Virus record (IMG/VR): IMGVR_UViG_3300025085_000002
Span: 108,977 to 172,976 of that record
DNA from: a virus
Length of the DNA stretch: 64,000 nt
Strand: one strand, 5' to 3'
Shown here: one piece after another, positions 34,254 to 48,195 of the stretch
Layout: each line of letters begins with the position of its first letter
How positions within the stretch are numbered: position 1 is the stretch's first letter
Notes under the pieces: model-generated
Seen by the model: the letters and a program-made list of their open reading frames with translations, nothing else
Database searches by the model: none
What the model was told of the DNA's origin: nothing
Made by a program: the position numbers and the translations under genes

Positions 34254-36542
34254 ATGGGAAAATTAATAAACGAATGGGTAACGGAATCAATCCTTACCGA
34301 AGACATTAAAAAAACAGTGGTAACTTACGTAGGTAGGTTTCATCCATTCCATTCTGGCCATAACGCAACATACCAACACTTAGTTAAAAAGTTTGGTAAA
34401 GATAATGTGTATATAGGTACGTCTGATAAGGTACAATTACCAAAGTCACCATTCACTTTCAAAGAGAAAGTTAAGATAATGACTACTATGTTTGGTATTC
34501 CCAAAAATAAAATAGTAAAGGTAAAAAACCCATATTCACCAAAAGAGATTCTACAATCATTTTCAGAAGAGACTACTGCATTTATCACAGTAGTTGGTGA
34601 GAAGGACAAGAGTAGATTGGGTGGTAAATACTTTGAACCATATAAGGGTAAGGTAGAAAAGGGTTATGCTGATGTCGGTTACGTTTATGTAGCACCATCA
34701 CAAGGAAACGGAATATCTGGTACTCAAGTACGTAAGGGTATGTCTGATTCGGATGAGAAATCTCGTATTAAGTTTTTCAAGTCAGTATACCCAAAGTTCA
34801 ACCAAAAGATTTATGATTTAGTTTCAGGTCGTTTAATAAAAGTAGAATCCGTAATGGAATCGTTCTTACAAACATTTGATATTAATGAAATGTTATCCGA
34901 AGCTTCATCATTACCACCAAGTGGTAAGGGTATAGTAGATGATGGTCCTGGCGCTTTCTATGGTAATATGAAAACTTTTAAGAAAGAGATGAATGATGTA
35001 ACTTCTACATTAGGCTGGCAAATTATATCATACCTAATGGATGATGATTCCATGGAGTCATTTGATACATCATACCCTAATGGGTCTGGTAGATATCCGG
35101 TATCATTTTTTCCAAGTGGTGATACCATGGATGGTCAGAAAATGAGATATGGAACGGATGTAACCGGCAGACCGGGATATAAAAAGTGGGCTAAACATAT
35201 TAAGAAAGTTGCCCTTCGTTTGGGTATGGAATTCGTTAAGTTTGCTGAACCAAAGGATATTGAAAATCTTACTTCTAAAATTGATAATGAAAAAACTAAA
35301 GATAAAAAAAATAATCTAAAAGAAGGTATTCTTAATGAAGGTGGTGCATATGGTCATATGAATCACCCATTTGATATTGAGTTAGGCCTTACATTTGGTG
35401 ATTTAAAAATAATAATAGATAACGCTCTAAATGGTAAGTTAGAATTTACACGAGAAAAAACCGATGGACAAGCACTTGCTATATCATATAGAAGTGACAA
35501 AGGTATCATCGCTGCAAGAAATAAATCACATCTAAAAGATAAAGGACTTAATGCATTAGACATTAAGGGTGTTTCAGATAAATTTGCTAATAGAGGTGGT
35601 TTGACCGATGCGTATAATTTCGCTATGAGAGATTTGGAATCTGCGATTTCAAAACTATCAAAAGCACAAAAAGAAAAAGTCTTCAAGAATGGTTCAAAGT
35701 TTATGAACATCGAAGTCATCTGGCCGGAGTCAGTAAACGTAGTACCATATGGTCAACCCCTATTAGTATTTCATGGAACTATGGAATACAACGAAAAAGG
35801 TGAAGCTATTGGAGCAGACACCTCTGATGCAAGAATCTTAGCCGGTATGATTAAACAAGTAAATGCGGATGTACAAGATGCATATACAATACAAGGCCCT
35901 CCGGTTGTAACTCTCCCAAAGAATCAAGAACTATCAAAAATGAAATCAAAGTTCTTTAGTCAATTATCTAAAGTTCAAAAAGAATTTAAACTTAAAGATA
36001 GTGATGGTGTAGCTGAATACCATCAACGTTGGTGGGAACAGTATGTTGATAAAAACTCACCATCTTCATTAGACAACAAAACCAAAATGGGTCTTGTTAA
36101 ACGTTGGGCATTTTATGATAAGGGATTCCGTTTGGATAAGAAAAACATTTCTGATTCTAAAACATTAGATTGGGCAAAGAAGACTGATAAAATAGACCAA
36201 ATTAAAATATCCAAACAAAACATACGTAAGTTTGAAGATATATTCTTAGGTGTAGGTGCCGAGGTATTATCCTTTATGTCATCAGCTTTAACTGTAAATC
36301 CAGACAAAGCTCTTCGTGCAATGCAAAAACGACTCGACCAAACCATCAAAGACGTTAGGAAATCGGGCGACCCAAAAAAGATTGAAAAATTAAAATTAGA
36401 ATTAGAAAGACTAAAAGCCGTAGGTGGTAGAGATAAGATTGTTCCAAATGAGGGATTGGTATTCGCATATAAAGGATACACCATGAAACTTACAGGTACA
36501 TTTGCATCACTCAACCAAATCCTTGGTTTAATGTATTTTTAA
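34254..36542 (+). CDS. Three-domain protein: nucleotidyltransferase + middle domain + ligase-like domain
   Basis: A 762-residue protein. Residues 20-200 are a cytidylyltransferase/NMN-adenylyltransferase-like Rossmann domain with H33-S-G-H36 and the ISGTQVR motif at 154-160. Residues 217-362 are an unrecognised domain. Residues 363-762 show the motifs of the ATP-dependent nucleic-acid ligase superfamily: K402-T-D-G405 (motif I), E487 in NIEVIWPE, E733-GLVF (motif IV) and K745 in MKLTG (motif V). The borders carry LSE|A at 216 and LNE|G at 362, matching the phage's likely prohead protease pattern. It may be a head-packaged precursor of RNA- or DNA-repair enzymes; that is inference. Confidence 0.75.
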   Translation: MGKLINEWVTESILTEDIKKTVVTYVGRFHPFHSGHNATYQHLVKKFGKDNVYIGTSDKVQLPKSPFTFKEKVKIMTTMFGIPKNKIVKVKNPYSPKEILQSFSEETTAFITVVGEKDKSRLGGKYFEPYKGKVEKGYADVGYVYVAPSQGNGISGTQVRKGMSDSDEKSRIKFFKSVYPKFNQKIYDLVSGRLIKVESVMESFLQTFDINEMLSEASSLPPSGKGIVDDGPGAFYGNMKTFKKEMNDVTSTLGWQIISYLMDDDSMESFDTSYPNGSGRYPVSFFPSGDTMDGQKMRYGTDVTGRPGYKKWAKHIKKVALRLGMEFVKFAEPKDIENLTSKIDNEKTKDKKNNLKEGILNEGGAYGHMNHPFDIELGLTFGDLKIIIDNALNGKLEFTREKTDGQALAISYRSDKGIIAARNKSHLKDKGLNALDIKGVSDKFANRGGLTDAYNFAMRDLESAISKLSKAQKEKVFKNGSKFMNIEVIWPESVNVVPYGQPLLVFHGTMEYNEKGEAIGADTSDARILAGMIKQVNADVQDAYTIQGPPVVTLPKNQELSKMKSKFFSQLSKVQKEFKLKDSDGVAEYHQRWWEQYVDKNSPSSLDNKTKMGLVKRWAFYDKGFRLDKKNISDSKTLDWAKKTDKIDQIKISKQNIRKFEDIFLGVGAEVLSFMSSALTVNPDKALRAMQKRLDQTIKDVRKSGDPKKIEKLKLELERLKAVGGRDKIVPNEGLVFAYKGYTMKLTGTFASLNQILGLMYF

Positions 36543-36544
36543 CA

Positions 36545-36552
36545 TACTTATA
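36545..36552 (+). promoter_or_regulatory. Putative late promoter box TACTTATA
   Basis: AACATACTTATAGTAATAA stands 26 bases before the ATG at 36579, directly after the preceding stop. It is a full match to the longer consensus ACATACTTATAnnAA shared with 40570, 48721 and 58217. Confidence 0.6.
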
Positions 36553-36578
36553 GTAATAAAAGTTATATATAAAAAGTT

Positions 36579-37157
36579 ATGTCAAAATTAAACAACATCA
36601 AGGCAGTCAAAGAAATGATTGCTGGAAACCACCGAACACAAACAAAGAACACGGTGGCATTTGATGCACATAAAGAGTTCGTCAAACGAGAAGTTGGTGA
36701 CCAGTGGATTGATGATGATGGAAATACATGGGAGCAGAAGAAAGGATACAAAGTAAAACTTGGTAAACTTTCGGAATTGAGAAACACACTCAAGGACTTT
36801 CCTAATTGTAAAAAAGATACGTGTACATCGCATACGAATCCAACTCGTAACGATATTAAGATGCAGGCCATTCATGGTATGTGTCTAAATTGTGTTATTA
36901 GTATGGAACATCAAATGAAAATTGATGGTACGTATAGTGAGTATGAACGTAAAAAGAAGCTAGAAAACGCAAAAGCTTGGTTAGCCCAAGCTGAGTTGGA
37001 AAAGGATACTATAAAGTTAGCTATGAAAGCTAGGTTTGTGAATGAAGATGGGTCACTTGAAGATTGGGATGGTGGTTCATGGGAAGAGATTGAAGAAAAG
37101 ATAGAAACTGAGTTTCAAAATTTTAAAGAAACCTTTATCCAAAAATTGGAGAAATAA
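36579..37157 (+). CDS. Hypothetical protein with Cys/His cluster, 192 aa
   Basis: Unrecognised. The middle has cysteines at FPNCKKDTCTSH and HGMCLNCV, a spacing that could bind one zinc ion. The C-terminal 80 residues form a charged coiled coil. It has a strong late-type promoter box and leads the cluster of modular, possibly head-packaged proteins. Confidence 0.65.
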   Translation: MSKLNNIKAVKEMIAGNHRTQTKNTVAFDAHKEFVKREVGDQWIDDDGNTWEQKKGYKVKLGKLSELRNTLKDFPNCKKDTCTSHTNPTRNDIKMQAIHGMCLNCVISMEHQMKIDGTYSEYERKKKLENAKAWLAQAELEKDTIKLAMKARFVNEDGSLEDWDGGSWEEIEEKIETEFQNFKETFIQKLEK

Positions 37158-37158
37158 A

Positions 37159-37569
37159 TTGAAAACATTTATTAAAGAAACATATAAATTCTACACCGAA
37201 GATGGTATACCTCATACATTAGCTATGGAGTATACCATTTCCGATGTTTACGAACGACTATGTACTGAAGGTGTAATGACTGAAGATTTACGTAAGTGGT
37301 TTGGTAAAGGTAAGACTGGTTCATCAGATGGTGGTGGATGGGATAGATATAGTTCTGATGGTAAGAAGTTAGGTAAATGTGGTGATGGTAAAGAGGGTGG
37401 TGCATACGCTGCATGTTTATCAAAAGAAAAGGCTGCAAAACTTGGACCAAAGGGTAGAGCAACTTTCGTGAATAGAAAGAGACGTGCTCAAAAGAAGAGT
37501 GGCGATTCAAAAAAAGGTGGAAATCGGACTAAAGGAAAAAAACCAACAAACTCAAAGACTGGGGCATAA
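37159..37569 (+). CDS. DUF5872-like basic protein
   Basis: A 136-residue protein. Residues 47-136 (DLRKWFGKGKTG, GGGWDRYSSDGKKLGKCGDG, AAKLGPKGRATFVNRKRRAQKK) match a basic domain, I believe DUF5872, found in marine phages and giant viruses. The strong positive charge suggests DNA binding. The TTG start at 37159 is supported by a GGAG seven bases upstream. Between a short N-terminal part and this domain lie CTE|G and MTE|D, possible prohead-protease sites, so the basic domain might be packed with DNA. Confidence 0.65.
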   Translation: MKTFIKETYKFYTEDGIPHTLAMEYTISDVYERLCTEGVMTEDLRKWFGKGKTGSSDGGGWDRYSSDGKKLGKCGDGKEGGAYAACLSKEKAAKLGPKGRATFVNRKRRAQKKSGDSKKGGNRTKGKKPTNSKTGA

Positions 37570-37572
37570 GAT

Positions 37573-37872
37573 ATGATTAAGTTAAAACAATTACTAAACG
37601 AGAGTGATTACAAGATATATCACAAATCATTTACTGCAGCATCTGAAGAAGCAAGGAAGCTTGCTGAAAAACGTGGATTCGAAATCGATGAAGACGATTG
37701 GCAGTCTCAGATTGTAATGGGTGGTCGTAACAAACGCTCAAGACCAAGTGAAGGTAAAACTACTGAGTTCACAATTAGATTACTTAAAGGTGGTAAACCA
37801 CAACGTAAGTCTCTTCAAATCCAAGTATATGGTATGAAGAAGGGTTATGAACTAAACGCATACATCAACTAA
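37573..37872 (+). CDS. Small basic protein with prohead-type N-terminal tag
   Basis: A 99-residue basic protein beginning MIKLKQLLNES. The short hydrophobic-basic leader ending in L-N-E|S resembles the capsid-targeting sequence of T4 internal proteins, which is removed by gp21 after (L/I)-x-E. The rest (ASEEARKLAEKRGFEIDED, then KSLQIQVYGMKKGYELNAYIN) is a small alpha/beta domain I do not recognise. A GGGG-type SD precedes the start. Confidence 0.65.
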   Translation: MIKLKQLLNESDYKIYHKSFTAASEEARKLAEKRGFEIDEDDWQSQIVMGGRNKRSRPSEGKTTEFTIRLLKGGKPQRKSLQIQVYGMKKGYELNAYIN

Positions 37873-37880
37873 GGGGTATT

Positions 37881-39677
37881 ATGAATACTAAACTAAATAA
37901 ATCGGTTAAGAAGTTTTTAGATGATTATCTAAAAGATGAAAAAAAGAATTCGCCAGAACATCAAGAATCGGTTATGCTGATTATGAGAGGCGCCTTAACT
38001 GACGCTAACTTTCATAGTGAAGCAAAACAATTAGGTAAATACTTTCCAAAAGCAGGTAAGAAATACATTGGTACACCAATGGAAGATGTGATTGAAAGTA
38101 AGGGTATTGCTATTGCTAAAGCTGCAAAGTGGGATGGTCATGATATCATTGACGCATTTGCATTTTACCTAAGTATGTCAATTGGTGGTTCATTCGGAAA
38201 TAGATTGATGTCACTAAAAGAATCAATTGAAGAGTCATTAGTTGAAGAGGGTGAAAAGTTAGACGAGAAGAATGTACCAACTAACCCATCTAAATGGGCT
38301 TACTATAAAGCACAAGCAAAGAAGAAGTTTGACGTATACCCATCAGCATATGCAAATGGTTGGGCTTCAAAACAATACAAAAAAGCTGGTGGTGGTTGGA
38401 AGACTGAATCAGTAAACGAAGGTATGGTAAGTCCAAGTAAAGGGCATGCTTACTATAAGTTGAGTAAAGACACCCCAATCAAATATGTATCAGGTCATTA
38501 TGGAGTCGGATTAAAAGTTCCTGGTGTATTACTTCATAACGAATATGATACAATCAAAGGTCAGAAGGGTGCTTACATTATCAATTACTTCAATCAACAT
38601 TTCTATGTGGATATTAAAAACAAATTTGCATCAAGAATTGCCCATCCAGATAATAAAGAGCAAAATAAAGATTTGAAAAAAAATATGCAGTTCTCGGCAG
38701 TTGCACCTGACCACAAAGATTGGAAGAAATATGTGAAGGAATCAGTAAACGAAGGTTATGGTAAATTCATTAAAGCTAAAAACCTTACTGATATCATTAA
38801 ATTATCAAAGCAAAAGAAAAACGCAACATTCTATGTAACTGATGATAACAATTCTCGTATTGGTGCATTTTATTTAAAGAATGGTAAGTTTGCTAAAGCA
38901 ACTACTGCAAACCCTAGCTATGATTTACAAAATAACAAAACTAAGTTAAGAGATAGAAGTGATGTAATCTACAAGTATAAAGTAGACGAATCAGTAAACG
39001 AAGCTAAGGATAAAGTATTTGTAGTGATGTTTAAGGTCAAAAAAGATTTACCCAATAGAAGTGTAAAACCATCTTCAGCTGTATATGCAAAAGAAGCTGA
39101 TGCTAAGAAATTCTTAAAATCGGTTGAGAAAGATGGTGGTAAGGGAATGATTGTAAAGTCTAATAAACCCGTTGGTGTAAAGGTAAATGAAGCTGCAACA
39201 AGAACTGCTGTGGAAATTGGTGGTTTGACCGGTGTGAATAAAGATGCTATCCAAAAGTTTGTTGATGATAACAAATTAGACATTGAGAAAGTATACCAAT
39301 TCGTTAAGAAAGGTAAACTTGCTGATAGAATGAAGTTAGTATCTGCAATCGCAGGTAAACCTAATAACCCAGTTCAAAAGAAGATGGTTAAACAATTCGG
39401 TGAAGGTATCATCAAAGAAGCAAAAGTAAGATTGGGTAAAGACTCAGTAAACTTCAAAGTGATGGGTGACTCAAAGGGATTGACCCTAATCGCTGCAAGT
39501 GGTAATGACTTAGATGGTCTTCAAGATGCAATTGAAAATAATGTTGATGTGAAAGAAGAATTGAGAAAGACACTTGAGAAACAACTTAAAGTTCCAGTTG
39601 AAGTGGATAGAGATTACGATGGTGCTGGTTTTAGATTCAACATTGACTTTTACTCATTGGCTAAAAAGGTAAAGTAA
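37881..39677 (+). CDS. Modular basic polyprotein with repeated SVNE linkers
   Basis: A 598-residue lysine-rich protein made of about six small modules. Their borders carry VNE|G at 180 and 291, VNE|A at 374 and 437, and IKE|A at 513; three borders share the identical 16-base sequence GAATCAGTAAACGAAG. These resemble the likely gp23 maturation site (VSE|A) and the gp21 rule (I/L/V)-x-E. Module 1 ends with NPSKWAYYKAQAKKKF and SAYANGWASKQYKKAGGGW, a domain I know from marine phages and giant viruses. I infer a prohead-protease substrate giving internal head proteins. SD AAGGGG. Confidence 0.7.
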   Translation: MNTKLNKSVKKFLDDYLKDEKKNSPEHQESVMLIMRGALTDANFHSEAKQLGKYFPKAGKKYIGTPMEDVIESKGIAIAKAAKWDGHDIIDAFAFYLSMSIGGSFGNRLMSLKESIEESLVEEGEKLDEKNVPTNPSKWAYYKAQAKKKFDVYPSAYANGWASKQYKKAGGGWKTESVNEGMVSPSKGHAYYKLSKDTPIKYVSGHYGVGLKVPGVLLHNEYDTIKGQKGAYIINYFNQHFYVDIKNKFASRIAHPDNKEQNKDLKKNMQFSAVAPDHKDWKKYVKESVNEGYGKFIKAKNLTDIIKLSKQKKNATFYVTDDNNSRIGAFYLKNGKFAKATTANPSYDLQNNKTKLRDRSDVIYKYKVDESVNEAKDKVFVVMFKVKKDLPNRSVKPSSAVYAKEADAKKFLKSVEKDGGKGMIVKSNKPVGVKVNEAATRTAVEIGGLTGVNKDAIQKFVDDNKLDIEKVYQFVKKGKLADRMKLVSAIAGKPNNPVQKKMVKQFGEGIIKEAKVRLGKDSVNFKVMGDSKGLTLIAASGNDLDGLQDAIENNVDVKEELRKTLEKQLKVPVEVDRDYDGAGFRFNIDFYSLAKKVK

Positions 39678-39678
39678 G

Positions 39679-40548
39679 ATGACTAAAACACAACTCAAGG
39701 AATTAATCAGAGAAGAATACCATAACGTAAAAGACTTTATGGAAGATAAGTATGGTTTTACTCCTGAGCTGGGTAAGGTCATTGACAACCCATATGTATC
39801 ATCATTTAAAAATGAAGCTACATATTCAAGTGGATTATATATGATACTTGACAAAGATGGTAAAGTCGTTGATAAGGGTCTTGAAAGTAATATGTGGTAT
39901 TCCTTTGAAAAATATAGAGGTAAAGGAACACACTATATCGTATCAAAGAAAAACCTAAGTAAAGCACAATCACTTATCAAAAAATATCAGTCAGACCTTA
40001 GTAATACTAAGTTCAGAGATTCGATGTTTAAATTGTACAAGGAATCAGTATCAACTGAAGCGTTATCAGATTATGAAAAAGATGGTGCTGACTACGAACA
40101 ATTATACAAAGATTACTTATACTCTAAGAAGAGAAAAACCGAAGGTGATGAAGTAATCGATGAGTATGATGTTGATACTATTGAAGAGACGACTGATTTC
40201 ATAAACTTTATGAAAGAATACTCTCAGATGTTAAATTTACATAAAGAGCAGAATAGTGATATCTACGCACTAAACCCAACACTTGATGAAGCAGAGTATC
40301 AAGGTCGTGACGTAAAACTTGGTAAACCAATGCAAGGTGATGTTAAGAAGTTTAAAGTATACGTAAAGAATCCAAAGGGAAATGTTGTAAAGGTAAACTT
40401 CGGACATGGTGGAACATCTGCAAAGGGTAAAACAATGTCTATCAAAAAGAATGACCCTGCGAGACGTAAGGCATTTAGAGCAAGACATAATTGTGATAAT
40501 CCTGGACCACGACATAAAGCTAGATATTGGTCTTGTCGTAAGTGGTAA
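39679..40548 (+). CDS. Modular protein with basic C-terminal phage domain
   Basis: A 289-residue protein. It starts MTKTQLKELIREEY, a leader like those of its neighbours. Residues about 50-127 form a module related to part of the protein at 47218 (THYIVSKKNLSKAQSLIKKY). The last 85 residues (YQGRDVKLGKP, KVYVKNPKGNVVKVNFG, NDPARRKAFRARHNCDNPGP, YWSCRKW) are a conserved basic domain seen in many marine phages, immediately preceded by LDE|A at 204, an ideal gp21-type site. STE|A at 127 may be another. It is possibly a head-packaged precursor. Confidence 0.7.
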   Translation: MTKTQLKELIREEYHNVKDFMEDKYGFTPELGKVIDNPYVSSFKNEATYSSGLYMILDKDGKVVDKGLESNMWYSFEKYRGKGTHYIVSKKNLSKAQSLIKKYQSDLSNTKFRDSMFKLYKESVSTEALSDYEKDGADYEQLYKDYLYSKKRKTEGDEVIDEYDVDTIEETTDFINFMKEYSQMLNLHKEQNSDIYALNPTLDEAEYQGRDVKLGKPMQGDVKKFKVYVKNPKGNVVKVNFGHGGTSAKGKTMSIKKNDPARRKAFRARHNCDNPGPRHKARYWSCRKW

Positions 40549-40569
40549 CTTAATTAACTCCGAGTTACA

Positions 40570-40577
40570 TACTTATA
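40570..40577 (+). promoter_or_regulatory. Putative late promoter box TACTTATA
   Basis: TTACATACTTATATAAACAAG lies 31 bases before the ATG at 40609 in an otherwise empty gap. It is a close match to the extended late consensus. Confidence 0.58.
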
Positions 40578-40608
40578 TAAACAAGTAAGTTTAACAAAAG
40601 AGAGAATT

Positions 40609-40926
40609 ATGACAAAACTTAAAAATTGGTTCATCGGTCTATGGAATAGATTATTGAACAAAACTACCATTGATGAACAAATCATGGAAACAGTAGCAGA
40701 TGCAAAGGAAAAGCTAGAATCAGTTAAAGAAGAGTTTGCTGATGTAGCAGAAGAACTTAAAGACGTAATGTCGGCCATTAAGGGAAAGGTTACTAAAAGT
40801 AAACTTCGTTCGATGACAAAAGTACAAATGCTTGAAGCTGCTAAAAAAGACCACAATGTTGATTTGGATTCTAAACTAAACAAGACGAATCTAATTAATA
40901 AAGTTTACGAACTTTACAACAAGTAA
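40609..40926 (+). CDS. Small helical protein with SAP/HeH-like C terminus
   Basis: A 105-residue protein: an amphipathic N terminus (LKNWFIGLWNRLLNK), a glutamate-rich coiled coil, and a C-terminal helix-extended-helix region (SKLRSMTKVQMLEAAKKDHNV, then LNKTNLINKVYELYNK) that recalls SAP/HeH nucleic-acid-binding motifs. Similar proteins occur as hypotheticals in marine T4-like phages. SD AGAGAG. Role unknown; binding of DNA near packaging is possible. Confidence 0.65.
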   Translation: MTKLKNWFIGLWNRLLNKTTIDEQIMETVADAKEKLESVKEEFADVAEELKDVMSAIKGKVTKSKLRSMTKVQMLEAAKKDHNVDLDSKLNKTNLINKVYELYNK

Positions 40927-40929
40927 TTT

Positions 40930-41511
40930 GTGAGAAATTATTTCGGAGATATCAAGACCCTTCTGATAGTAGTATTAGGAGTTATTATATTTTTGACACG
41001 TGGTTGTCAGAACGGGTCTGATATTACCGAACCACAAGTTATTACTGAAGTAGTCACAAAATGGGATACTGTACAAATTGAAAAAACCAAGTACATCCCA
41101 AAGGTAGTGGAGAAGGTAGTAGTTAATATTGATACATTTACTACACCAATTGATACATTATCAGTATTAAAAGATTATTACGCAAAATACTTTTATACTG
41201 ACACTATTATTATAGATTCGCTAGGTTATGTTACTATTAACGATACGATAACACGTAACCTAATTTCATTTAGAGATGTTCAATCCGAAATACTCATCCC
41301 AACAACTACAATTACTAATACTGTTTACATCAACAAACGTGAACTCTATGTGGGTACTACGTTAAATGGTGACCGAACTCAATTATATAACTTGAGCGGT
41401 AATCTTTTATACAAAACAAAAAAACGTAATGTATATAATATTGGGGTAGGTGTAGATAGTGACTTCAAGCCCGTTTACACAATTGGTATGTATTGGAAGT
41501 TTGGTAAATAA
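40930..41511 (+). CDS. Single-pass membrane or lipoprotein, 193 aa, GTG start
   Basis: One hydrophobic segment (LLIVVLGVIIFLTRGC, residues 10-25) ends in a cysteine, so it could be an N-terminal anchor or an imperfect lipobox. The rest is beta-rich, threonine-rich and ends in alternating strands (YNIGVGVDSDFKPVYTIGMYWKFGK, in parts). No lysis gene is otherwise visible nearby; a spanin-like role is possible but unproven. It ends 8 bases before the terminase gene. Confidence 0.6.
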   Translation: MRNYFGDIKTLLIVVLGVIIFLTRGCQNGSDITEPQVITEVVTKWDTVQIEKTKYIPKVVEKVVVNIDTFTTPIDTLSVLKDYYAKYFYTDTIIIDSLGYVTINDTITRNLISFRDVQSEILIPTTTITNTVYINKRELYVGTTLNGDRTQLYNLSGNLLYKTKKRNVYNIGVGVDSDFKPVYTIGMYWKFGK

Positions 41512-41519
41512 TAGGTGAT

Positions 41520-43094
41520 ATGCCAAAAGATATAAAAACACTAATCAGGGAAGAGTGGGTTAAGTGTGCTAAGGATCCAGTATATTTCTTCAAGAAGTAT
41601 TGTTATATCCAACACCCCCACCGAGGTAAGATTTTATTTAATCTTTACCCATTTCAAGAAGACTTAATGACAAGTGTAAATGAGGAACGATTCAACGTAA
41701 TCCTCAAGTCACGTCAGTTGGGTATCTCAACACTATCAGCCGGGTATTCACTATGGTTGATGTTGTTTCATGAAGATAAAAACATTCTTGTAATTGCTAC
41801 CAAACAAGAGGTAGCTAAGAATCTTGTTACTAAGGTAAGATTCATGCATGATAATTTACCAACGTGGCTAAAGGGTCAGACTGAAGAAGATAACAAACTA
41901 TCCTTACGATTACGAAATGGTTCTCAAATTAAAGCAACATCTGCCGCAGGTGATGCTGGTCGTTCTGAAGCATTATCAATGTTGATTATCGATGAGGCTG
42001 CATTCATTAACAATGTAGAAGAGATTTGGACTTCGGCACAATCTACACTTTCTACCGGTGGTGGTGCTATTGTATTATCTACTCCAAATGGTGTGGGTAA
42101 TTGGTTTCACAAGATTTGGGTTCAAGGTCAACAAGGAGACCAGTGGAATCCAACCGAATTACATTGGACGGTACATCCTGAGAGAAATCAATTGTGGAGA
42201 GATGAACAAGAGAAATTATTAGGAGCTAAGGGCGCAGCACAAGAGTGTGATTGTGACTTTATCAGTTCTGGCCATACGGTAGTTGAAGGTGCTACATTAC
42301 AATGGTACGAAGAAACGTATGTAAAAGACCCAATTGAAAAACGTGGGTTTGATGGTAACTATTGGTTATGGGACTATCCAAATTATTCTCGTGATTATGT
42401 AGTAGTTGCCGATGTCGCAAGAGGTGACTCATCCGATTATTCAGCATTCCATGTATTCGATGTAGAGACTGTTGAACAAGTAGCAGAATACAAAGGTAAG
42501 ATTGATACTAAACAATATGGTGCAATGTTAACTTCGGTAGCGGCGGAATGGAACAACGCAATGTTGGTGATTGAAAACGCAAATATTGGTTGGGCAGTGA
42601 TACAAGAAGTAATTGATAGAAACTATGATAATCTATATTATTCATATAGAGATGTAGGTTACATAGATGATGATATACATCTCAGAAAAGGTTTTGACTT
42701 AAAACGTAAAGAGGATATGGTTCCTGGATTTTCTATGACAAGTAGAACTCGACCATTAGTAATATCTAAGTTAGATATGTATATGAGAGAGAGGACCCCT
42801 ATAATCCATTCTAAGAGACTTATAGACGAATTGTTTGTATTCATATGGAATGGTAGTAGAGCTGAAGCACAACGTGGTTATAATGATGACTTGGTGATAT
42901 CATTCTCCACCGGTCTTTGGGTACGTGATACGGCATTAAAATTAAGACAACAGGGTATGGATTTAACGAGAACTACATTAGGGCATATGGGTAAGTCAAG
43001 TACCGGTGTTTATTCTAACCGTAACCTCGGCCAAGACCCATGGAAACAAAAAGACCAACATGGAAAGGACCAAGATTTAACTTGGTTACTTTAA
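41520..43094 (+). CDS. 17: Large terminase subunit (gp17), DNA-packaging motor and nuclease
   Basis: The ATPase that pumps DNA into the prohead and cuts the concatemer. In 524 residues: a Walker A-like loop S64-RQLGIST71, Walker B MLIIDEAAF around D158-E159, the coupling motif LSTPNG, and an RNase H-type nuclease with D298 in VVADVARGD and E352 in LVIENANIGW. Length and motif order match T4 gp17 without its N-terminal extension. SD AGGTGAT. Portal follows directly; no small terminase is visible nearby. Confidence 0.96.
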   Translation: MPKDIKTLIREEWVKCAKDPVYFFKKYCYIQHPHRGKILFNLYPFQEDLMTSVNEERFNVILKSRQLGISTLSAGYSLWLMLFHEDKNILVIATKQEVAKNLVTKVRFMHDNLPTWLKGQTEEDNKLSLRLRNGSQIKATSAAGDAGRSEALSMLIIDEAAFINNVEEIWTSAQSTLSTGGGAIVLSTPNGVGNWFHKIWVQGQQGDQWNPTELHWTVHPERNQLWRDEQEKLLGAKGAAQECDCDFISSGHTVVEGATLQWYEETYVKDPIEKRGFDGNYWLWDYPNYSRDYVVVADVARGDSSDYSAFHVFDVETVEQVAEYKGKIDTKQYGAMLTSVAAEWNNAMLVIENANIGWAVIQEVIDRNYDNLYYSYRDVGYIDDDIHLRKGFDLKRKEDMVPGFSMTSRTRPLVISKLDMYMRERTPIIHSKRLIDELFVFIWNGSRAEAQRGYNDDLVISFSTGLWVRDTALKLRQQGMDLTRTTLGHMGKSSTGVYSNRNLGQDPWKQKDQHGKDQDLTWLL

Positions 43095-43095
43095 A

Positions 43096-43127
43096 TTTGG
43101 TACTTTAATTTATTTTTTGTATATTTA
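43096..43127 (+). promoter_or_regulatory. Bacteroidota-type promoter upstream of the portal gene
   Basis: TTTG at 43096-43099, exactly 20 bases with a T tract, then TATATTTA at 43120-43127. It overlaps the TATTTATA late box at 43122-43129, so portal and downstream genes may have both host-type and late transcription starts. Confidence 0.55.
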
Positions 43128-43129
43128 TA
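43122..43129 (+). promoter_or_regulatory. Putative late promoter box TATTTATA (overlaps host-type promoter)
   Basis: TATTTATA sits 38 bases before the portal ATG and shares six bases with the -7 box of the host-type promoter. Confidence 0.5.
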
Positions 43130-43167
43130 ACTTGTAGAAGTATATACTTTTAGTTAGAGACGAAATT

Positions 43168-45018
43168 ATGGCAGATAAATCACTATTTAATAGGTTAGGA
43201 AAATTATTCAACACTCAAGTTGTTGTCCGTAGGATTGGTAAGGGTCGTACCCAAACTATCGATACTCAAAGACTACAATCTCAGGGTAACCTCCGTGGTT
43301 CATCTTATTACGATAGGTTTGGTAGAATGCATACCTCTCGTAGAAATTGGGAAACGTATAACAATCAATTTAATTATCATTCAAATAAATTAGAACTATA
43401 TACTGATTACGAAGCAATGGATAAAGATTCCATTCTAAACTCAGTATTAGATATATACGCCGATGAGTGTACTCTAAAAAATGACATGGGTGATGTTCTT
43501 AGAATTAAAACTAATGACGAGAACGTAAAAAAGATTCTTCACAACCTATTTTACGATGTAATGAATATTGAGTTCAATCTTTGGGCTTGGATTCGTGGTA
43601 TGAATAAATATGGTGACTACTTCCTACATCTTGATATTGAAGAAGGTGTTGGTATTGTAAACGTATCACCAATGTCAGCATACGAAGTAGAAAGAGAAGA
43701 AGGGTTTAATCCCGAAAACCCATACGAAGTAAGATTTAAATTAGGTTCAATGGGTGCTGCTCATGGTGCAAGTGTAAACAAGAACGCTGATTACTTTGAG
43801 TTCTATCAAATCGCACATTTCCGTTTATTAGCAGATACAAACTTCCTTCCATATGGTCGTTCGTTGCTAGAAGGTGCAAGAAAGACTTGGAAGCAGTTGA
43901 CTCTTATGGAAGATGCTATGATGATTCATAGAATTATGAGAGCACCTGAAAGACGTACATTTAAAATTGATGTAGGTAACATTCCACCTGGTGAAGTTGA
44001 TAACCACATGAGAGGTATCATTGACCAAATGAAGAAAGTACCATATCTTGACCAAAATACTGGTGACTACAATCTCAAGTTTAATCTAATGAATATGTTA
44101 GATGATTACTACCTACCAGTTCGTGGTGGTCAAAGTGGTACTGAGATAGATACACTAAGTGGTATGGAATTCGGTGGTATTGATGATATAGAATACCTAA
44201 GAAATAGAATGATGGCTGCACTAAAAGTACCAAAAGCATTTATTGGGTACGATGAGTCAGTTGAAGGTAAGGCAACTCTTGCACAAGAGGACATCAGATT
44301 CGCACGTTCAGTTGAGAGAATCCAAAAGATTGTTCTTTCTGAATTAACTAAGATTGCAATTGTTCACTTATATTCACAAGGTTACGAAAACGAAGACCTT
44401 GTTAACTTTGAGTTGGAACTTACAAACCCATCTATCATATACGAACAAGAGAAAGCTGCATTGTGGTCTGAGAAGGTATCATTGGTATCTGATATGAAAG
44501 ACCTCAAAATGGTTTCTCAAGAATGGATGTATAAGAACATATTCAATATGAGTGATGATGAGTGGGCTCTTGAACAAGGTAAAGTTATTGGAGATTTAAA
44601 ACTCGGATTTAGACAAGCTCAAATTGAAGATGAAGGTAATGATCCAGTTAAAACTGGCGAGTCATTTGGCACACCACACGATTTGGCACAAATGCATCAA
44701 ACACCTAACGATGATGGTGGTTCTCCTGAAGGTGGGTTTGATGGCGCTGGTAGACCATCAACATCAGGTAACTATAAAACGGATGATAGTGCATTTGGCA
44801 GAGACCCACTTGGTCAAAAGACCGATATTAAACCAGCCGCAACATATCATAAGTATAAAAATTCACCACTTGCTTACGAGCAAACACAAGCTTTGAAATC
44901 ATCTTTGAAAAACGTTAAACGCAAAACAACTAAGATTCTAAATGAATCTTTATTAGAAGATGAAAAGGCTGAATCGGGTTTATTAGATGAGAGAAATCTT
45001 ATCGATGACACGATTTGA
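43168..45018 (+). CDS. 20: Portal protein (gp20)
   Basis: The 616-residue dodecameric portal through which DNA enters and leaves the head. Recognised by T4 gp20-like stretches: DSILNSVLDIYADECTLKN, FNLWAWIRGMNKYGDYFLHLD, ILEGARKTWKQLTLMEDAMMIHRI-type helix (here LLEGARKTWKQLTLMEDAM), APERRTFKIDVGNIPP and GGQSGTEIDTLSGMEFG. It lies between terminase and the prohead protease, as in T4. SD AGAGACGA. Confidence 0.95.
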   Translation: MADKSLFNRLGKLFNTQVVVRRIGKGRTQTIDTQRLQSQGNLRGSSYYDRFGRMHTSRRNWETYNNQFNYHSNKLELYTDYEAMDKDSILNSVLDIYADECTLKNDMGDVLRIKTNDENVKKILHNLFYDVMNIEFNLWAWIRGMNKYGDYFLHLDIEEGVGIVNVSPMSAYEVEREEGFNPENPYEVRFKLGSMGAAHGASVNKNADYFEFYQIAHFRLLADTNFLPYGRSLLEGARKTWKQLTLMEDAMMIHRIMRAPERRTFKIDVGNIPPGEVDNHMRGIIDQMKKVPYLDQNTGDYNLKFNLMNMLDDYYLPVRGGQSGTEIDTLSGMEFGGIDDIEYLRNRMMAALKVPKAFIGYDESVEGKATLAQEDIRFARSVERIQKIVLSELTKIAIVHLYSQGYENEDLVNFELELTNPSIIYEQEKAALWSEKVSLVSDMKDLKMVSQEWMYKNIFNMSDDEWALEQGKVIGDLKLGFRQAQIEDEGNDPVKTGESFGTPHDLAQMHQTPNDDGGSPEGGFDGAGRPSTSGNYKTDDSAFGRDPLGQKTDIKPAATYHKYKNSPLAYEQTQALKSSLKNVKRKTTKILNESLLEDEKAESGLLDERNLIDDTI

Positions 45019-45030
45019 TGAGTTTTTACA

Positions 45031-45038
45031 TATTTATA
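45031..45038 (+). promoter_or_regulatory. Putative late promoter box TATTTATA
   Basis: ACATATTTATAAATTGG in the gap after the portal gene, 29 bases before the ATG at 45068, followed by an AAGG SD. Confidence 0.58.
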
Positions 45039-45067
45039 AATTGGAATAGTAATAGATAAGGTTTACA

Positions 45068-45913
45068 ATGGCCAAATTAAAACACAGCAAGTTTAAAAAT
45101 ACGGGTATTCTATTTGAATTACTCGTAAAGCAAATCGCATCCGATACACTTGCGAACAAAGATTCTCTTGCCTTGGAAATAATAAAGAAACATTTCAAAA
45201 GAGGTACTGAATTAAACAAAGAGTTAAAATTGTATCAATCTTTAACTAAAGAAAACTTCGATAACCAATATCAGGCTCAGGAGTTTTTAAATATTGTATT
45301 GGAAGAACGTGGTAGTTTAAATGAGGGTATTCTTCGTAGACAAAAGTATAATTTGATTAAATCAATCAAAGAGTCATTTGTTATGGAGGACTTCTTTAAA
45401 TATCGTGTTACTAATTATCGTGAAATGGCATCGGTTTACAAAATGTTTGAAAATACAAGTTTGACATCTCCAAAAGAGTACGTTACTTGTAAAAATACAA
45501 TACTCGAAGTAATCACTAAATCAAATGTTGAGATTGTAACTGAATCTGATAATACTGAGTATAACAACCAATCTAAAGAAGTTAGGTTGTTGGCTTATAA
45601 GTTCTTGGTTGAATCATTTAACTCAAAGTACACAACTTTATCAGAAGAACAAAAGATGATTTTAAAGAATTATATCAACAACGTTGATAATTCAACTAAA
45701 TTAAAGTCATTTGTTATAACTGAAGTTAAGAAACTAAAGAAAAGTTTCAAAGCAGTAGATGTATCGGATAAAGTAGCACAAATAAAACTAAATGAAACTG
45801 TAAATCTTATTGATAACATTACAAATTCTAAAATAATCAATGAGAATCAGATTTTATCTCTTCTAAGATATCATGAACTTTTACAAGAGTTACGGAGGGT
45901 TTCAAATGTCTAA
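45068..45913 (+). CDS. Head-region protein between portal and prohead protease
   Basis: A 281-residue helical, lysine-rich protein. It occupies the place of T4 genes 67/68 (prohead core proteins), and similar hypotheticals stand between gp20 and gp21 in marine T4-like phages. Opening KLKHSKFKNTGILFELLVKQI is distinctive but unassigned. A role in prohead assembly is inferred from position only. Its end overlaps the next gene by 8 bases. Confidence 0.68.
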   Translation: MAKLKHSKFKNTGILFELLVKQIASDTLANKDSLALEIIKKHFKRGTELNKELKLYQSLTKENFDNQYQAQEFLNIVLEERGSLNEGILRRQKYNLIKSIKESFVMEDFFKYRVTNYREMASVYKMFENTSLTSPKEYVTCKNTILEVITKSNVEIVTESDNTEYNNQSKEVRLLAYKFLVESFNSKYTTLSEEQKMILKNYINNVDNSTKLKSFVITEVKKLKKSFKAVDVSDKVAQIKLNETVNLIDNITNSKIINENQILSLLRYHELLQELRRVSNV

Positions 45914-46436
45914 ATTCTTACTAGAACAATTGGAAGGTAAGTTTGAAGAGCTGGAGTCAATCGAAACTCTTAAAGAGGAAGAGGTAGATGAGGCTAATGT
46001 AACATCTAATATGGATGGGGGAGCAGGCCCACCTAAAACTCCTAACGCATTTGCAAAGAGTGAAGATGAAGATGATTTGGATACTGACCACATAGAGGTA
46101 CTTGGTTATAAAAAACCAAAGAAAACAAAAAAGATAAATACGGAGTCTAAAACTATGAAGAAATTAGAAGATAAGCTAGAACGTATAATCGAAGCTACTT
46201 ATAGAGATTACAAAAAAGATGACTCTATGAAGGCACATCAAAAAGTAAATAAATCTATCAAAGAGATTAATCGAATGATGTACGAAGTTGAAAAGATTGT
46301 AAATCAGAACACTAAGTTAAAAAATGAAATGGGTGTATCTAATGAACAATATTGGAAGTCTACACAAAAAAGATTCGGTAAGATTTCAGAAAGAATGTTA
46401 AAAGTTGCTCGTAACTTAAAAGAATTGAGCGCATAG
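45906..46436 (+). CDS. Prohead core-like protein, 176 aa
   Basis: Start chosen at ATG 45906 because a strong SD (GGAGGG, 45894-45899) precedes it; an in-frame TTG at 45873 lies deep in the upstream gene. The N-terminal half is acidic, with VDE|A near residue 30 as a possible protease site; the C-terminal half is a basic coiled coil. This acidic/basic build and position suggest a prohead core protein, comparable to T4 gp67/gp68, without clear sequence similarity. Confidence 0.65.
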   Translation: MSKFLLEQLEGKFEELESIETLKEEEVDEANVTSNMDGGAGPPKTPNAFAKSEDEDDLDTDHIEVLGYKKPKKTKKINTESKTMKKLEDKLERIIEATYRDYKKDDSMKAHQKVNKSIKEINRMMYEVEKIVNQNTKLKNEMGVSNEQYWKSTQKRFGKISERMLKVARNLKELSA

Positions 46437-46437
46437 T

Positions 46438-46578
46438 ATGTCGTGTGGGTGTAATAAAAATAAATTAAACGAAGACCTCGAAGTACAAGACCTCGAAGAT
46501 ATCAGACTATTGATACGTAGAGAACTTGCAAGAGTGTTCTTTGATTTATATCGTAAGAAAAAGGTGTGGGAAAACTAA
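46438..46578 (+). CDS. Very small protein, 46 aa
   Basis: A short gene starting 1 base after the previous stop and ending 1 base before the protease ATG: it begins MSCGCNKNKLNEDLEVQDLE and ends KKKVWEN. The CGC motif and the exact fit between its neighbours support it as real. T4 also has small genes here (67, 68). Function unknown. Confidence 0.6.
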   Translation: MSCGCNKNKLNEDLEVQDLEDIRLLIRRELARVFFDLYRKKKVWEN

Positions 46579-46579
46579 G

Positions 46580-47218
46580 ATGAAACAACTACTTGTAGAT
46601 ACAATGATATTTGAAGTAACACCTACTATGTTACAAGAAGCAAAGGACCAGACTGGTCGTTTCTTAGTAAATGGTGTGTTACAACGTGCTGATGCTAAAA
46701 ACCAAAATGGTAGAGTGTATCCACGTAACATCTTAGAACGTGAAGTAAAGAAATACCAAGGACGTGAAATCAAAGAGAATCGTGCTTATGGTGAATTGGA
46801 CCATCCTGAAAGTGGTGTAGTCGAATTAAAGAACACATCACACATTATCCGTGAAGTATCATGGAATGGTGATGATGTTGTTGGAACAGTTGAAATACTA
46901 AATACACCAGCTGGAAAGATTTTACAAGAATTAGTAAAAGCTGGGTGTACTGTTGGTATCTCGTCAAGAGGTATGGGTTCCGTAAAACAAATTGGTGAAG
47001 ACACCGTCGCAGTAGAACAAGACTTTGATTTGATATGTTGGGACTTTGTTTCTAACCCATCAACTCATGGAGCATTTCTCTCACCAACAAACGAGGGTAC
47101 GATAAACGAATCGGTTACTGTTAAAAAGAATACTTATAAATACAATAAAGCTAACAATATGATGAGAGACATCATGTGTGAGGTTGGTGGATATTGTGAA
47201 TGTGATTTTGGAGTATAA
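46580..47218 (+). CDS. 21: Prohead maturation protease (gp21)
   Basis: The serine protease that processes scaffold, capsid and internal proteins inside the prohead. In 212 residues: GELDHPESG with His75, and CTVGISSRGMGSV with Ser128/Ser129, the conserved His and Ser of the gp21 family; WDFVSNPSTHGAFLSP follows. ATG 46580 is used; a longer reading from 46526 overlaps the small gene before it. LQE|A at residues 18-21 is a likely self-cleavage site. The next ATG overlaps its stop. Confidence 0.93.
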   Translation: MKQLLVDTMIFEVTPTMLQEAKDQTGRFLVNGVLQRADAKNQNGRVYPRNILEREVKKYQGREIKENRAYGELDHPESGVVELKNTSHIIREVSWNGDDVVGTVEILNTPAGKILQELVKAGCTVGISSRGMGSVKQIGEDTVAVEQDFDLICWDFVSNPSTHGAFLSPTNEGTINESVTVKKNTYKYNKANNMMRDIMCEVGGYCECDFGV

Positions 47219-48195
47219 TGAAAAATTTAAAAGAACTACTAAACGAATCTACATACAAACGTATGAAGATAAACGATGAAGAAACCCAAAAGGGAATGAC
47301 TAACGAAGAAAAGCGTGAATTCCTTAAAGCTGTTTCTGAATACAAGAAATTCGGTGAGTCAATCTATCGTTCAGGTAATTTGGGAGAAGTATACGAATCT
47401 ATTAAAGGTATCGTAGAGACTGCACACAAGGTAACTCTTGAGGAAACTGGAGATTGGTTTGACAAGGTAACTGTTGGTAGACACATGAAGTCTATGAATG
47501 AGTCATTCAAAGTATTTACTAATACAATCAAAGAAGTAAATACCCTACAACAAAGACTTGAGTCTTGTTACGATGAGATGGGTGAAGTTCTTGGTAAGTA
47601 TTACGAAATCAAAGAAGGTAACGAATTCGGCGCTGCAAGAGCGAAAGCAATTGCTAATGGTGATGATGAGTTCGAAGTAGATGGTAAAGAATTTCCAGTA
47701 AAAGACGTTGATAAGGACGACAAGGAAAACGCTAAAGAATTCGCTAAAGAATCTGTAAATGAAGAATCGTCAATGAAGCTAACTGATATACTAAGTGAAA
47801 ACAAATACTCAATCATAGACCCAAAGGGAAACCAAAAGGGTATTGGTACCAAAGACCAAGCAAATAAACTACAAAAGAAATTAGGTGGTTCTAAAAAAGG
47901 ATACTTTGTAGTTGCTGCTAAATCGGCATTGAAAGCCAGAAGAGCAATGGAAAAGTATCAGTTTGATTTTAAAAACCCTAAACTTCAAGATAAGATGTCT
48001 GACCTTTACTTTGAATCAGTAACCGAAGATATTATTGGAGAAGGTGCTTCTAGCGAAGAAAAAAGAATTGTGATGTTGGCAGTTCGTAAAATATCAAAAT
48101 ATCGTCAAGTACCAATTAATATATCAGTTGTAGATGTATTAAGAGCTGCAGAAGAACTTGAAAGAGATATCAAAAAAGGTAAGGTTAAGAAATAA
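47218..48195 (+). CDS. Modular head protein with prohead-type tag
   Basis: A 325-residue protein beginning MKNLKELLNES, like the leaders of the 37-40 kb proteins. A helical first part is followed by the linker ESVNEESSMKLTDILSENKYS with VNE at 180-182, then a module (residues about 190-270) related to one in the protein at 39679 (GYFVVAAKSALKARRAMEKY), then VTEDIIGE|G at 275 and a small C-terminal helical module. It lies between protease and scaffold genes. I infer a prohead-protease substrate. Confidence 0.68.
   Translation: MKNLKELLNESTYKRMKINDEETQKGMTNEEKREFLKAVSEYKKFGESIYRSGNLGEVYESIKGIVETAHKVTLEETGDWFDKVTVGRHMKSMNESFKVFTNTIKEVNTLQQRLESCYDEMGEVLGKYYEIKEGNEFGAARAKAIANGDDEFEVDGKEFPVKDVDKDDKENAKEFAKESVNEESSMKLTDILSENKYSIIDPKGNQKGIGTKDQANKLQKKLGGSKKGYFVVAAKSALKARRAMEKYQFDFKNPKLQDKMSDLYFESVTEDIIGEGASSEEKRIVMLAVRKISKYRQVPINISVVDVLRAAEELERDIKKGKVKK

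Follow-up and report, generated by a model that had tools for sequence, protein, structure and literature searches.

Four proteins of 762, 598, 289 and 325 amino acids (aa), encoded in the 64,000-nucleotide stretch of DNA of a marine T4-type phage analysed here (the window), are probably precursors that enter the prohead and are cut by the gp21 prohead protease, the freed modules being delivered with the DNA. Comparison with related phages establishes, at the level of sequence, the gp21-type motif, the module borders and the coincidence of the two, matching module starts in different settings, and a DNA seam that coincides with recombination borders. The features concerned are listed below, with predicted cuts marked by an arrow.

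34254..36542, + strand: 762-aa protein in three parts (NMN-adenylyltransferase-like, middle and C-terminal ligase-like domains)
37573..37872, + strand: 99-aa protein, leader MIKLKQLLNE↓ and a single module, predicted cut after base 37602
37881..39677, + strand: 598-aa polyprotein made up of modules, with cuts predicted after residues 123, 180, 291, 374, 437 and 513
39679..40548, + strand: 289-aa protein, predicted cut after residue 204 (base 40290)
46580..47218, + strand: gp21 prohead protease (Peptidase S77; PF03420, 2.4e-31; phrog_207, 7.7e-52)
47218..48195, + strand: 325-aa protein, leader MKNLKELLNE↓, sites after residues 133 and 275
48837..49898, + strand: putative gp22-type scaffold, from its position and acidic composition, with several gp21-type motifs
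49929..51527, + strand: gp23 major capsid protein (PF07068, 2.5e-77)

Predicted prohead protease sites in the window

All of the gp21-type sites claimed in the preliminary description of the window were confirmed at the residues given there, namely after residues 216 and 362 of the 762-aa protein, 180, 291, 374, 437 and 513 of the 598-aa protein, 204 of the 289-aa protein and 275 of the 325-aa protein, as well as in gp23, where the likely maturation site, VSE↓A, follows residue 60 at base 50108, and in the protease. That list was nevertheless selective, as the pattern also occurs at residues 123 (598-aa protein), 357 (762-aa protein) and 133 (325-aa protein). The protease's own sites follow residues 20 and 177 and are kept in most relatives. 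Cuts are predicted after residues 11, 216 and 362 of the 762-aa protein (bases 34286, 34901 and 35339) and after bases 38249, 38420, 38753, 39002, 39191 and 39419 in the 598-aa gene, the latter giving pieces of 57-123 aa. The AF2 model of the 598-aa protein (pLDDT 55) is too poor to conclude from. The cut predicted in the 289-aa protein would free a strongly basic (+18) C-terminal module of 85 aa, of which the siphophage Kolga encodes a stand-alone homologue starting M-AKYQGR, near the predicted mature start. A net charge of +5 or more is carried by 11 of the 18 predicted pieces, in a tally where one border of the 325-aa protein was placed at residue 186, which is not a site; the seven pieces that are not basic are residues 1-123 and 514-598 of the 598-aa protein, 217-362 of the 762-aa protein, 1-204 of the 289-aa protein and three pieces of the 325-aa protein.

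Together the four proteins hold 12 copies of [VIL]xE[AG] versus 3.35 in shuffled sequences (0/2000 shuffles as high), and the 598-aa protein alone holds six versus 0.94 (1/2000); for the 762-, 289- and 325-aa proteins, each taken alone, the excess over shuffles is not significant. Ten other, unrelated proteins of the window contain 25 motifs versus 12.2 in shuffles, an approximately twofold excess.

Module borders in related phages

The placing of these sites at domain borders, a guess in the preliminary description, is borne out by the relatives, where a given module is joined to unlike upstream sequences at [L/I/V]-x-E↓[A/G/S]. The capsid maturation site carries this motif too, 29/31 distinct site strings fitting it, as do the sites near the N and C termini of gp21 (69/84 distinct strings at the N site and 64/88 at the C site). 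When the same sites were looked for at the domain borders of related phages they were found, with 117 of 213 protein homology borders (counted at ≥85% identity) lying within 8 aa of [VILM]xE↓[AGS] versus 33.9 expected (3.45x); six substitute motifs occurred near homology borders at 0 to 0.8 times expectation. These comparisons speak well for the module borders being cleavage sites for the prohead protease that the phage itself encodes.

Distinct upstream contexts of each module were scored for a strict site at most 3 aa from the module start. Such a site is present in 23/23 contexts of the 289-aa C-terminal module, 10/10 of the 325-aa C-terminal module, 16/18 of the 99-aa module, 27/33 of the ligase-like module and 5/6 of the 762-aa middle module, and in 3/5, 5/6, 2/2, 16/21 and 4/7 contexts of modules 3, 4, 5, 6 and 7, respectively; the strict inside-module control was 0.0. 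Glutamate lies within 3 aa of the border in 122/129 contexts of ten modules. Once contexts of the ESVNE type are removed, P3 is hydrophobic in 83 of the remaining 88 (1.97 bits), with only 0.2-0.75 bits at P4-P8; P3 at module borders may also be V, beyond the L/I of T4. The module of the 99-aa protein, which stands behind a 10-residue T4-type leader in the window, is the last module of polyproteins in relatives, and its start matches in both settings, after the leader site and after the internal site. Other borders are less regular. For one inner module of the 325-aa protein a strict site is present in 5/10 contexts, and LL-x-M or LL-x-C replaces the Glu form in 6/33 contexts of the ligase-like module, so that part of the motif may serve the fold. 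At the borders of DUF5872 a strict site is found in 1/24 contexts and E mostly precedes K or R; this Glu seemingly belongs to the module itself.

A set of 108 non-redundant related proteins was selected for having at least two seam-type linkers, although a stricter pattern leaves 10 of them with one; the linkers are spaced at a median of 78.5 aa (206 intervals). When 70 of these proteins were scanned, 12 Pfam families were returned, each in at most nine members, together with 24 PHROGs, of which 22 lack a functional name. Among cultured relatives, Flavobacterium phage immuto encodes an 841-aa protein of this kind.

The ESVNE seam

A 16-base sequence reported earlier as common to three linkers was recovered as GAATCAGTAAACGAAG at 38406, 38739 and 38988:

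38406..38421, + strand: DNA seam copy 1 (ESVNE↓G), in the 598-aa gene
38739..38754, + strand: DNA seam copy 2 (ESVNE↓G), in the 598-aa gene
38988..39003, + strand: DNA seam copy 3 (ESVNE↓A), in the 598-aa gene

Its recurrence across phages and its coincidence with recombination borders had gone unnoticed. ESVNE is the commonest linker, and its DNA is nearly fixed; among 346 DNA homology borders, 139 fall no more than 15 bases from this seam versus 17 expected. On the strength of these two observations the seam looks like a protease site and a recombination joint at once. The pattern GARTCNGTNAAYGARG, from which AGY serine codons are excluded, has four matches in the whole 173-kb record, all in this cluster, and none on the reverse strand.

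The seam and a control pattern were each scanned for, with at least 120 matching stretches per scan, of which the 80 listed per scan were counted. Among the matches listed, two or more copies per locus were found in 19/80 for the seam versus 0/80 for the control, and A/G follows the site in 71/99 seam copies versus 16/70 for the control. In the remaining 28/99 in-frame copies listed the next residue is E, D or V, and these may be cut poorly. Reading frame was discarded as evidence, as the ESVNE frame is used in 99/106 seam copies but the control pattern is also in frame in 70/80 (matches listed). Presence of the S77 protease was likewise discarded as a marker, since it occurs in 8/9 long seam-scan contigs but also in 6/11 control contigs above the cut-off (7/11 at E 0.001), three of these controls being shorter than 100 kb, and is therefore not discriminating. 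It was found in 13 of 15 records when six from homology searches were counted with the nine from the seam scan.

Domains of the 762- and 325-aa proteins

The 762-aa protein matches CTP_transf_like (5.2e-5) and phrog_395 (8.5e-14). In its AF2 model the low-confidence stretches 4-16, 216-300 and 331-369 coincide with sites, and 302-309, 401-405 and 492-494 lie away from them. Matches listed by VIA-align fall almost wholly in residues 7-203, one extending to 336. The N-terminal part aligns with 2r5w (Z 12.5, rmsd 3.5, 166 aligned), phosphopantetheine adenylyltransferases, which share the fold, scoring alike (Z 12.2), and phmmer gives 2.8e-4 to 4yp5. Residues G27, R28, F29, P31, H36, S155, G156, T157 and R160 are invariant, within GRFxPxxxxH and SGTxxR-type motifs that we take to be those of NMN adenylyltransferases; by these alignments and residues, the N-terminal part fits the fold and motifs of that enzyme. 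In the C-terminal part the residues of KxDG, EGxVF and KxTG, presumably the motifs of ATP-dependent RNA/DNA ligases, are conserved. Foldseek matches this part weakly to T4 Rnl1/Rnl2 (prob 0.15-0.33), and a profile search of solved structures returned no ligase. The 325-aa protein contains an internal leader-like stretch, MKLTDILSE, at residues 186-194, and a seam variant encoding ESVNE at 47749-47764.

Leaders and head packaging

Several proteins of the cluster had been described as beginning with a T4-like capsid-targeting leader. A strict 10-residue leader is present in the 99- and 325-aa proteins, the only two among the 17 cluster genes tested; a looser pattern of 8-12 residues adds the 762-aa protein (an 11-residue form) and, unexpectedly, the terminase gp17. 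The 289-aa protein has no such leader, and the 598-aa protein has none by either pattern. Leader sites occur at 26-27 per 1000 at residues 9-10 versus 5.5 inside proteins, and 76 ORFs selected for the motif at 8-10 have Leu at position 4 in 45 cases and Leu/Ile at position 7 in 51. In T4, positions 4 and 7 of the leader are used for targeting and positions 8 and 10 for cutting by gp21, which recognises L/I-x-E (PMC9026906). In the cyanophage S-CREM2 a strict leader is found in 5/24 genes detected in virions versus 1/125 undetected genes (p=0.0004), and a looser one in 5/24 versus 3/125 (p=0.003); its ORF154 has a leader site and its ORF160 an internal one (ISE↓G). Mass spectrometry of virions prepared from T4-like cyanophages has detected proteins of the NMNAT-like family (PMC10665884, PMC3037559, PMC9602691), where such proteins may, according to the authors, be carry-over or simply highly expressed (PMC10665884, PMC9602691).

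Of the original reading that these proteins are packaged and cut, the part on borders is well supported by comparison, and head packaging is supported for the leader-bearing proteins and the NMNAT-like family; the leaderless 598-aa protein falls outside that support. Delivery into the host and a function there would be expected for these proteins by inference.

Proposed mechanism and implications

The prohead core would take up the precursors, the leader-bearing ones via a T4-type capsid-targeting sequence, and during head maturation gp21 would cut behind [L/I/V]-x-E at the borders between modules. The products would be small proteins of about 60-110 aa, many of them basic, together with an NMN-adenylyltransferase-like enzyme and a ligase-like protein, which would remain with the DNA and reach the host along with it. 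For this phage, cleavage, entry of the 598-aa protein into the head, delivery and a role in the host are inferences; cutting, packaging and injection draw support from T4 biology and from the excess of leader-bearing proteins in the S-CREM2 virion proteome. The ESVNE seam would act as an exchange point for modules between phages; as the commonest border is a nearly fixed DNA seam, an incoming module would arrive in frame with its cut site already attached. The chances seem evenly balanced that in marine T4-type phages a 16-bp in-frame seam, both cut site and joint, lets small cargo modules of head-packaged polyproteins be inserted, swapped and dropped without redesign, any module that brings a seam being in frame, packaged along with its chain and then released by cutting.

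If this is true, a single leader, a single protease and a joint that can be reused would account for the way in which large marine phages carry a set of injected proteins and quickly change it. A leader or seam plus the gp21 motif could then serve as a rule for finding head-packaged proteins of unassigned function, and may explain enzymes unexpected in cyanophage virion preparations, such as SAM hydrolase and perhaps Cas9. Given that few modules match named families, the seam would flag many candidate host-takeover or counter-defence proteins.

Alternative explanations

The linkers could be flexible spacers and recombination joints only, the multi-domain proteins working uncut. The linker DNA is itself conserved and coincides with recombination borders, so that common descent could account for the shared residues; moreover, what the S-CREM2 study reports is that proteins are present in virions, a search of its text for terms returning nothing on cleavage (PMC10665884), and the N4 virion RNA polymerase, a polyvalent protein, is packaged unprocessed (PMC5512222). 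Function without cutting is nonetheless unlikely, as borders other than ESVNE keep the hydrophobic P3 and the P1 Glu while varying more at the remaining upstream positions, the same motif is found at the gp23 and gp21 sites, and module starts match in leader and internal settings.

The modules might instead be scaffold or core proteins which, like T4 gp22 and gp67, are cut by gp21 to peptides that leave the head, nothing being injected. The cluster genes are located among gp17-gp23, the 325- and 289-aa proteins include acidic pieces, and the core proteins of T4 are for the most part lost after being cut at several points (PMC9026906). Against this, the pieces are domain-sized and 11/18 clearly basic, the NMNAT-like domain has intact motifs and its family is present in virion preparations, and rapid module turnover would be ill-suited to a scaffold; this reading is a little less probable still. 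Coincidental matches to a short pattern in Glu-rich proteins, for which the excess in unrelated window proteins speaks, are barely credible in view of the position-specific enrichment, absent for substitute motifs.

Comparison with known systems

The SPN3US-type giant phages, the head proteins of which are cut by gp245, are relatives of phiKZ. T4-type phages have mobile regulatory cassettes in which a short conserved DNA element drives modular shuffling, lying between genes and acting in expression, whereas the seam is internal to reading frames and codes for a protease site. We know of no repeated seam or shuffled module series in the P1 antirestriction proteins DarA and DdrB. Neither gp21-cut modular polyproteins nor an ESVNE seam were found in the titles and abstract openings of the open-licence papers listed.

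DarA and DdrB resemble the present proteins in being processed and packaged (PMC5512222). SPN3US gp245 is likewise a head protease cutting head proteins after Glu, but 13/14 of its sites serve to remove N-terminal propeptides rather than to release module after module (PMC10052503). The T4 internal proteins (IPI, IPII, IPIII and Alt) share the S77 protease and the L/I-x-E site and, with the 99- and 325-aa proteins, the 10-residue leader, and the IPs are small and basic, of about 8, 10 and 20 kDa (PMC9026906), as are many of the pieces predicted here; they are single proteins shedding a short leader, whereas the present chains consist of several modules, each border having a site, and phages exchange these modules. 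Polyvalent proteins combine two to fifteen unlike domains per chain among late genes, are thought to be packaged and injected, and were likened by their authors to RNA-virus polyproteins (Iyer et al. 2017, PMC5512222); here, too, several unlike modules are chained among late genes. None of the polyvalent domain set (ART, DarA, ArdC, ParB-like and others) is among the 12 Pfam families of the 70 relatives scanned (E 0.001), few modules matching any family, and no peptidase family was found among those 12 or in the 598-, 289-, 325- and 762-aa proteins. Release of polyvalent domains is credited to embedded peptidase domains (PMC5512222), whereas the sites described here fit a separate head protease.

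Gene cluster and predicted cleavage sites

The T4-type head cluster in the window, which spans bases 108977-172976 of the 172,976-base virus record, comprises terminase, portal gp20, the gp21 prohead protease (family S77) and the capsid protein gp23, with a scaffold of gp22 type assigned by position. The closest annotated gp23 proteins are those of Microcystis phage Mel-JY01 (57% identity) and Flavobacterium phage immuto (55.5%). A ribosomal protein S21 gene (48428-48685; PF01165, 5.6e-13) lies between gp21 and gp22, and S21 is annotated in the matching gene neighbourhood of Mel-JY01. The window also encodes a UV endonuclease UvdE (5554-6432; 6.1e-56) and a Clp-type protease (7660-8289; 7.3e-30). 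The proteins considered are:

34254-36542, plus strand, 762-aa protein
37573-37872, plus strand, 99-aa protein
37881-39677, plus strand, 598-aa protein
39679-40548, plus strand, 289-aa protein
46580-47218, plus strand, gp21
47218-48195, plus strand, 325-aa protein
49929-51527, plus strand, gp23

The preliminary description had listed gp21-type cut sites in these proteins apart from the 99-aa one, and a shared 16-base linker repeat; every site was recovered in its place and the repeat was found as described, while three matches to the same pattern, at residues 123 (598-aa), 357 (762-aa) and 133 (325-aa), had been missed. Together the 762-, 598-, 289- and 325-aa proteins contain 12 matches to [VIL]xE[AG] versus 3.35 in shuffles, with most of the excess stemming from the 598-aa protein.

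Across 205 loci (80 of them fetched with gp21, as a subset of at least 600), the motif is matched by the gp23 maturation site in 29 of the 31 distinct site strings and by the N- and C-terminal sites of gp21 in 69/84 and 64/88, respectively; the misfits are partly alignment shifts. The gp21 C-terminal sites include one NESVNE|S and many INE|S (the bar marks the predicted cut), resembling the module linkers. In the immuto scaffold protein (L071:16731-17972), a stretch beginning GFEQWLDSVSAQ is tandemly repeated, with a gp21-type site before each copy.

Module borders in related proteins

The 68 loci retrieved as relatives of the 598-aa protein show it to be a string of small modules that are combined differently among relatives. 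The relative in locus L009, about 90% identical in the shared parts, carries two extra modules flanked by linkers of this type. Borders were also located without choice by eye, through all-against-all comparison of 932 proteins from these loci (490 once near-copies were removed), a border being an alignment end that falls inside both compared proteins. Identities of at least 85% (100 proteins) yielded 213 borders, of which 117 have [VILM]xE|[AGS] no more than 8 residues away, with 33.9 expected. The comparison with relatives bears out the proposal that the sites mark domain borders. Replacing the motif's Glu by Asp, Lys, Asn, Gln, Ser or Thr gave control ratios of 0 to 0.8; the wrong-P3 and wrong-P1' motifs retained 1.9 and 1.5, which may be caused by linkers with several Glu residues. 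The enrichment drops to 2.97 at 75% and 2.48 at 60% identity, and at any identity 370 borders lie near the motif versus 189 expected.

The relatives of each window module in the 205 loci were further reduced to distinct upstream contexts, and a strict site was sought within three residues of the module start.

Contexts with a strict site before the module
289-aa C-terminal module: 23/23
325-aa C-terminal module: 10/10
99-aa module: 16/18
Ligase-like module (762-aa C-terminal part): 27/33
Module 6: 16/21
Module 4: 5/6
762-aa middle domain: 5/6
Module 3: 3/5
Module 7: 4/7
Module 5: 2/2
Inner module of the 325-aa protein: 5/10

The strict-site value in inside-module controls was 0.0. DUF5872 has a strict site in just 1 of 24 contexts, with K or R following its Glu in most, and this Glu seems to be part of the module itself. 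For the ten modules other than DUF5872 and the inner 325-aa module, Glu occurs within three residues of the start in 122/129 contexts. With ESVNE-type linkers removed, P3 is hydrophobic in 83 of 88 contexts (1.97 bits), compared with 0.2-0.75 bits at P4-P8. The border motif corresponds to the L/I-x-E recognition rule given for T4 gp21 (PMC9026906), except that V is also allowed. In six relatives of the ligase-like module, LL-x-M or LL-x-C takes the place of the Glu that otherwise precedes GGA, so that cutting there is improbable.

The 99-aa module is encoded in the window as its own gene with a 10-residue leader and in other loci as the final module of a polyprotein, following sites such as YLKE|A or VNE|A; predicted cutting yields a near-identical start from either setting, with the exception of L062, where the module has lost its site. 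The 289-aa C-terminal module is a stand-alone 79-aa protein in the Pelagibacter siphophage Kolga; its first residues, M-AKYQGR, correspond to E|AEYQGR in the polyprotein form. In the four other cultured phages examined, the module is preceded by LEE|A (HTVC008M), LDE|G (immuto), MME|S (Melnitz-3) and LTE|A (C48C1). The Mel-JY01 homologue of the 325-aa protein terminates in KYYEINGKK, where the window protein reads KYYEIKE|G and continues into further modules. An internal leader-like stretch, MKLTDILSE (47773-47799), follows the seam in the 325-aa protein, reading as though another gene, with its own leader, had been joined on in frame.

The ESVNE seam as DNA

ESVNE is the commonest pentapeptide (187 copies) in the unique plus-strand proteins of the loci. 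Its codons are biased relative to the rest of the same proteins (GTA 95% vs 47%, AAC 76% vs 39%, TCA/TCG 91% vs 47%), and an identical 15-mer occurs in 81 of 149 differently flanked copies. Per-base information is 0.8-2.0 bits within the seam and 0.3-0.5 just upstream; downstream it is 0.99 bits at the next base, then 0.2-0.5. The viral collection was scanned for the 16-mer and for a control pattern of reordered codons; among the 80 loci listed for each, at least two copies occur in 19/80 versus 0/80, and among the matches listed A or G follows the site in 71/99 versus 16/70. DNA-similarity borders were mapped in 74 genes that carry ESVNE, and 139 of the 346 lie within 15 bases of a seam centre (16.9 expected); these seam and border counts are less independent than they seem, as the loci are related. 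The most economical account is that this linker is propagated as DNA and commonly acts as a junction where modules are swapped. What is new here is the seam's apparent dual role in protease cutting and recombination.

Leaders and virion proteomes

The 10-residue T4 leader is described as directing targeting through positions 4 and 7 and cutting through 8 and 10 (PMC9026906). Across 1029 complete ORFs of these loci with distinct N termini, motif frequency reaches 27 per 1000 at residue 9 and 26 per 1000 at residue 10, versus 5.5 in the interior; control motifs show no peak there. Of 76 ORFs selected because the motif falls at residues 8-10, 45 have Leu at position 4 and 51 have Leu or Ile at position 7.

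The published virion proteome of Synechococcus phage S-CREM2 (PMC10665884) provided an independent test, covering 149 complete genes, 24 of them virion-detected, in two genome stretches (L449 and L450). A strict leader is present in 5/24 detected and 1/125 undetected genes (p=0.0004), and a looser pattern in 5/24 and 3/125 (p=0.003). The five leader-bearing detected genes include a SAM hydrolase, a kinase and a cytidylyltransferase; Cas9 has only a looser leader-like stretch, ending at residue 25. Leader-like N termini occur in:

L450, 3837-5081, SAM hydrolase
L450, 7704-10313, Cas9
L450, 10310-10546, unknown protein
L450, 10579-12846, kinase
L449, 20609-21469, cytidylyltransferase

The authors considered that some of these virion proteins may be carry-over (PMC10665884), and a term search of that paper returned neither targeting nor cleavage; the leader-like N termini may explain how these enzymes enter virion preparations. 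PHROG family 395 includes both the cytidylyltransferase and the N-terminal region of the 762-aa protein, although their pairwise similarity is slight. Virions of S-SM1 (PMC3037559) and of S-SCSM1 and S-CBWM1 (PMC9602691) are reported to contain related proteins. The virion-detected S-CREM2 ORF160 has no Pfam match, and its C-terminal stretch, first noticed by eye, resembles the DUF5872 module (pairwise E 3e-6).

It is very likely that the module borders are gp21 sites, and the polyproteins are likely candidates for injected cargo. The earlier proposal of head-packaged, gp21-cut polyproteins is partly supported, its site observations being confirmed; its weak point is the leaderless 598-aa protein.

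Structure and candidate functions

In the predicted model of the 762-aa protein (pLDDT 69.6), low-confidence stretches 4-16, 216-300 and 331-369 coincide with the sites at 11, 216 and 362, and short ones (302-309, 401-405, 492-494) lie away from sites. NMN adenylyltransferases are the match for the first domain (Z 12.5 on the predicted model; phmmer 2.8e-4), and phosphopantetheine enzymes, which are related to them, score nearly as well. The putatively ligase-like last domain retains the KxDG, EGxVF and KxTG residues of ligase motifs; T4 Rnl1 and Rnl2 match it in Foldseek at a probability of 0.15-0.33, and a profile search of solved structures gave no ligase. Named families are matched by a few modules only, and anti-defence roles, by analogy with T4 IPI, would be a guess. 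A Zeta-toxin-type family occurs in one of 70 polyproteins, and the HTVC008M protein L443:411-1073, in the corresponding gene neighbourhood, has a P-loop (by eye) and the short leader MIPFILKE|.
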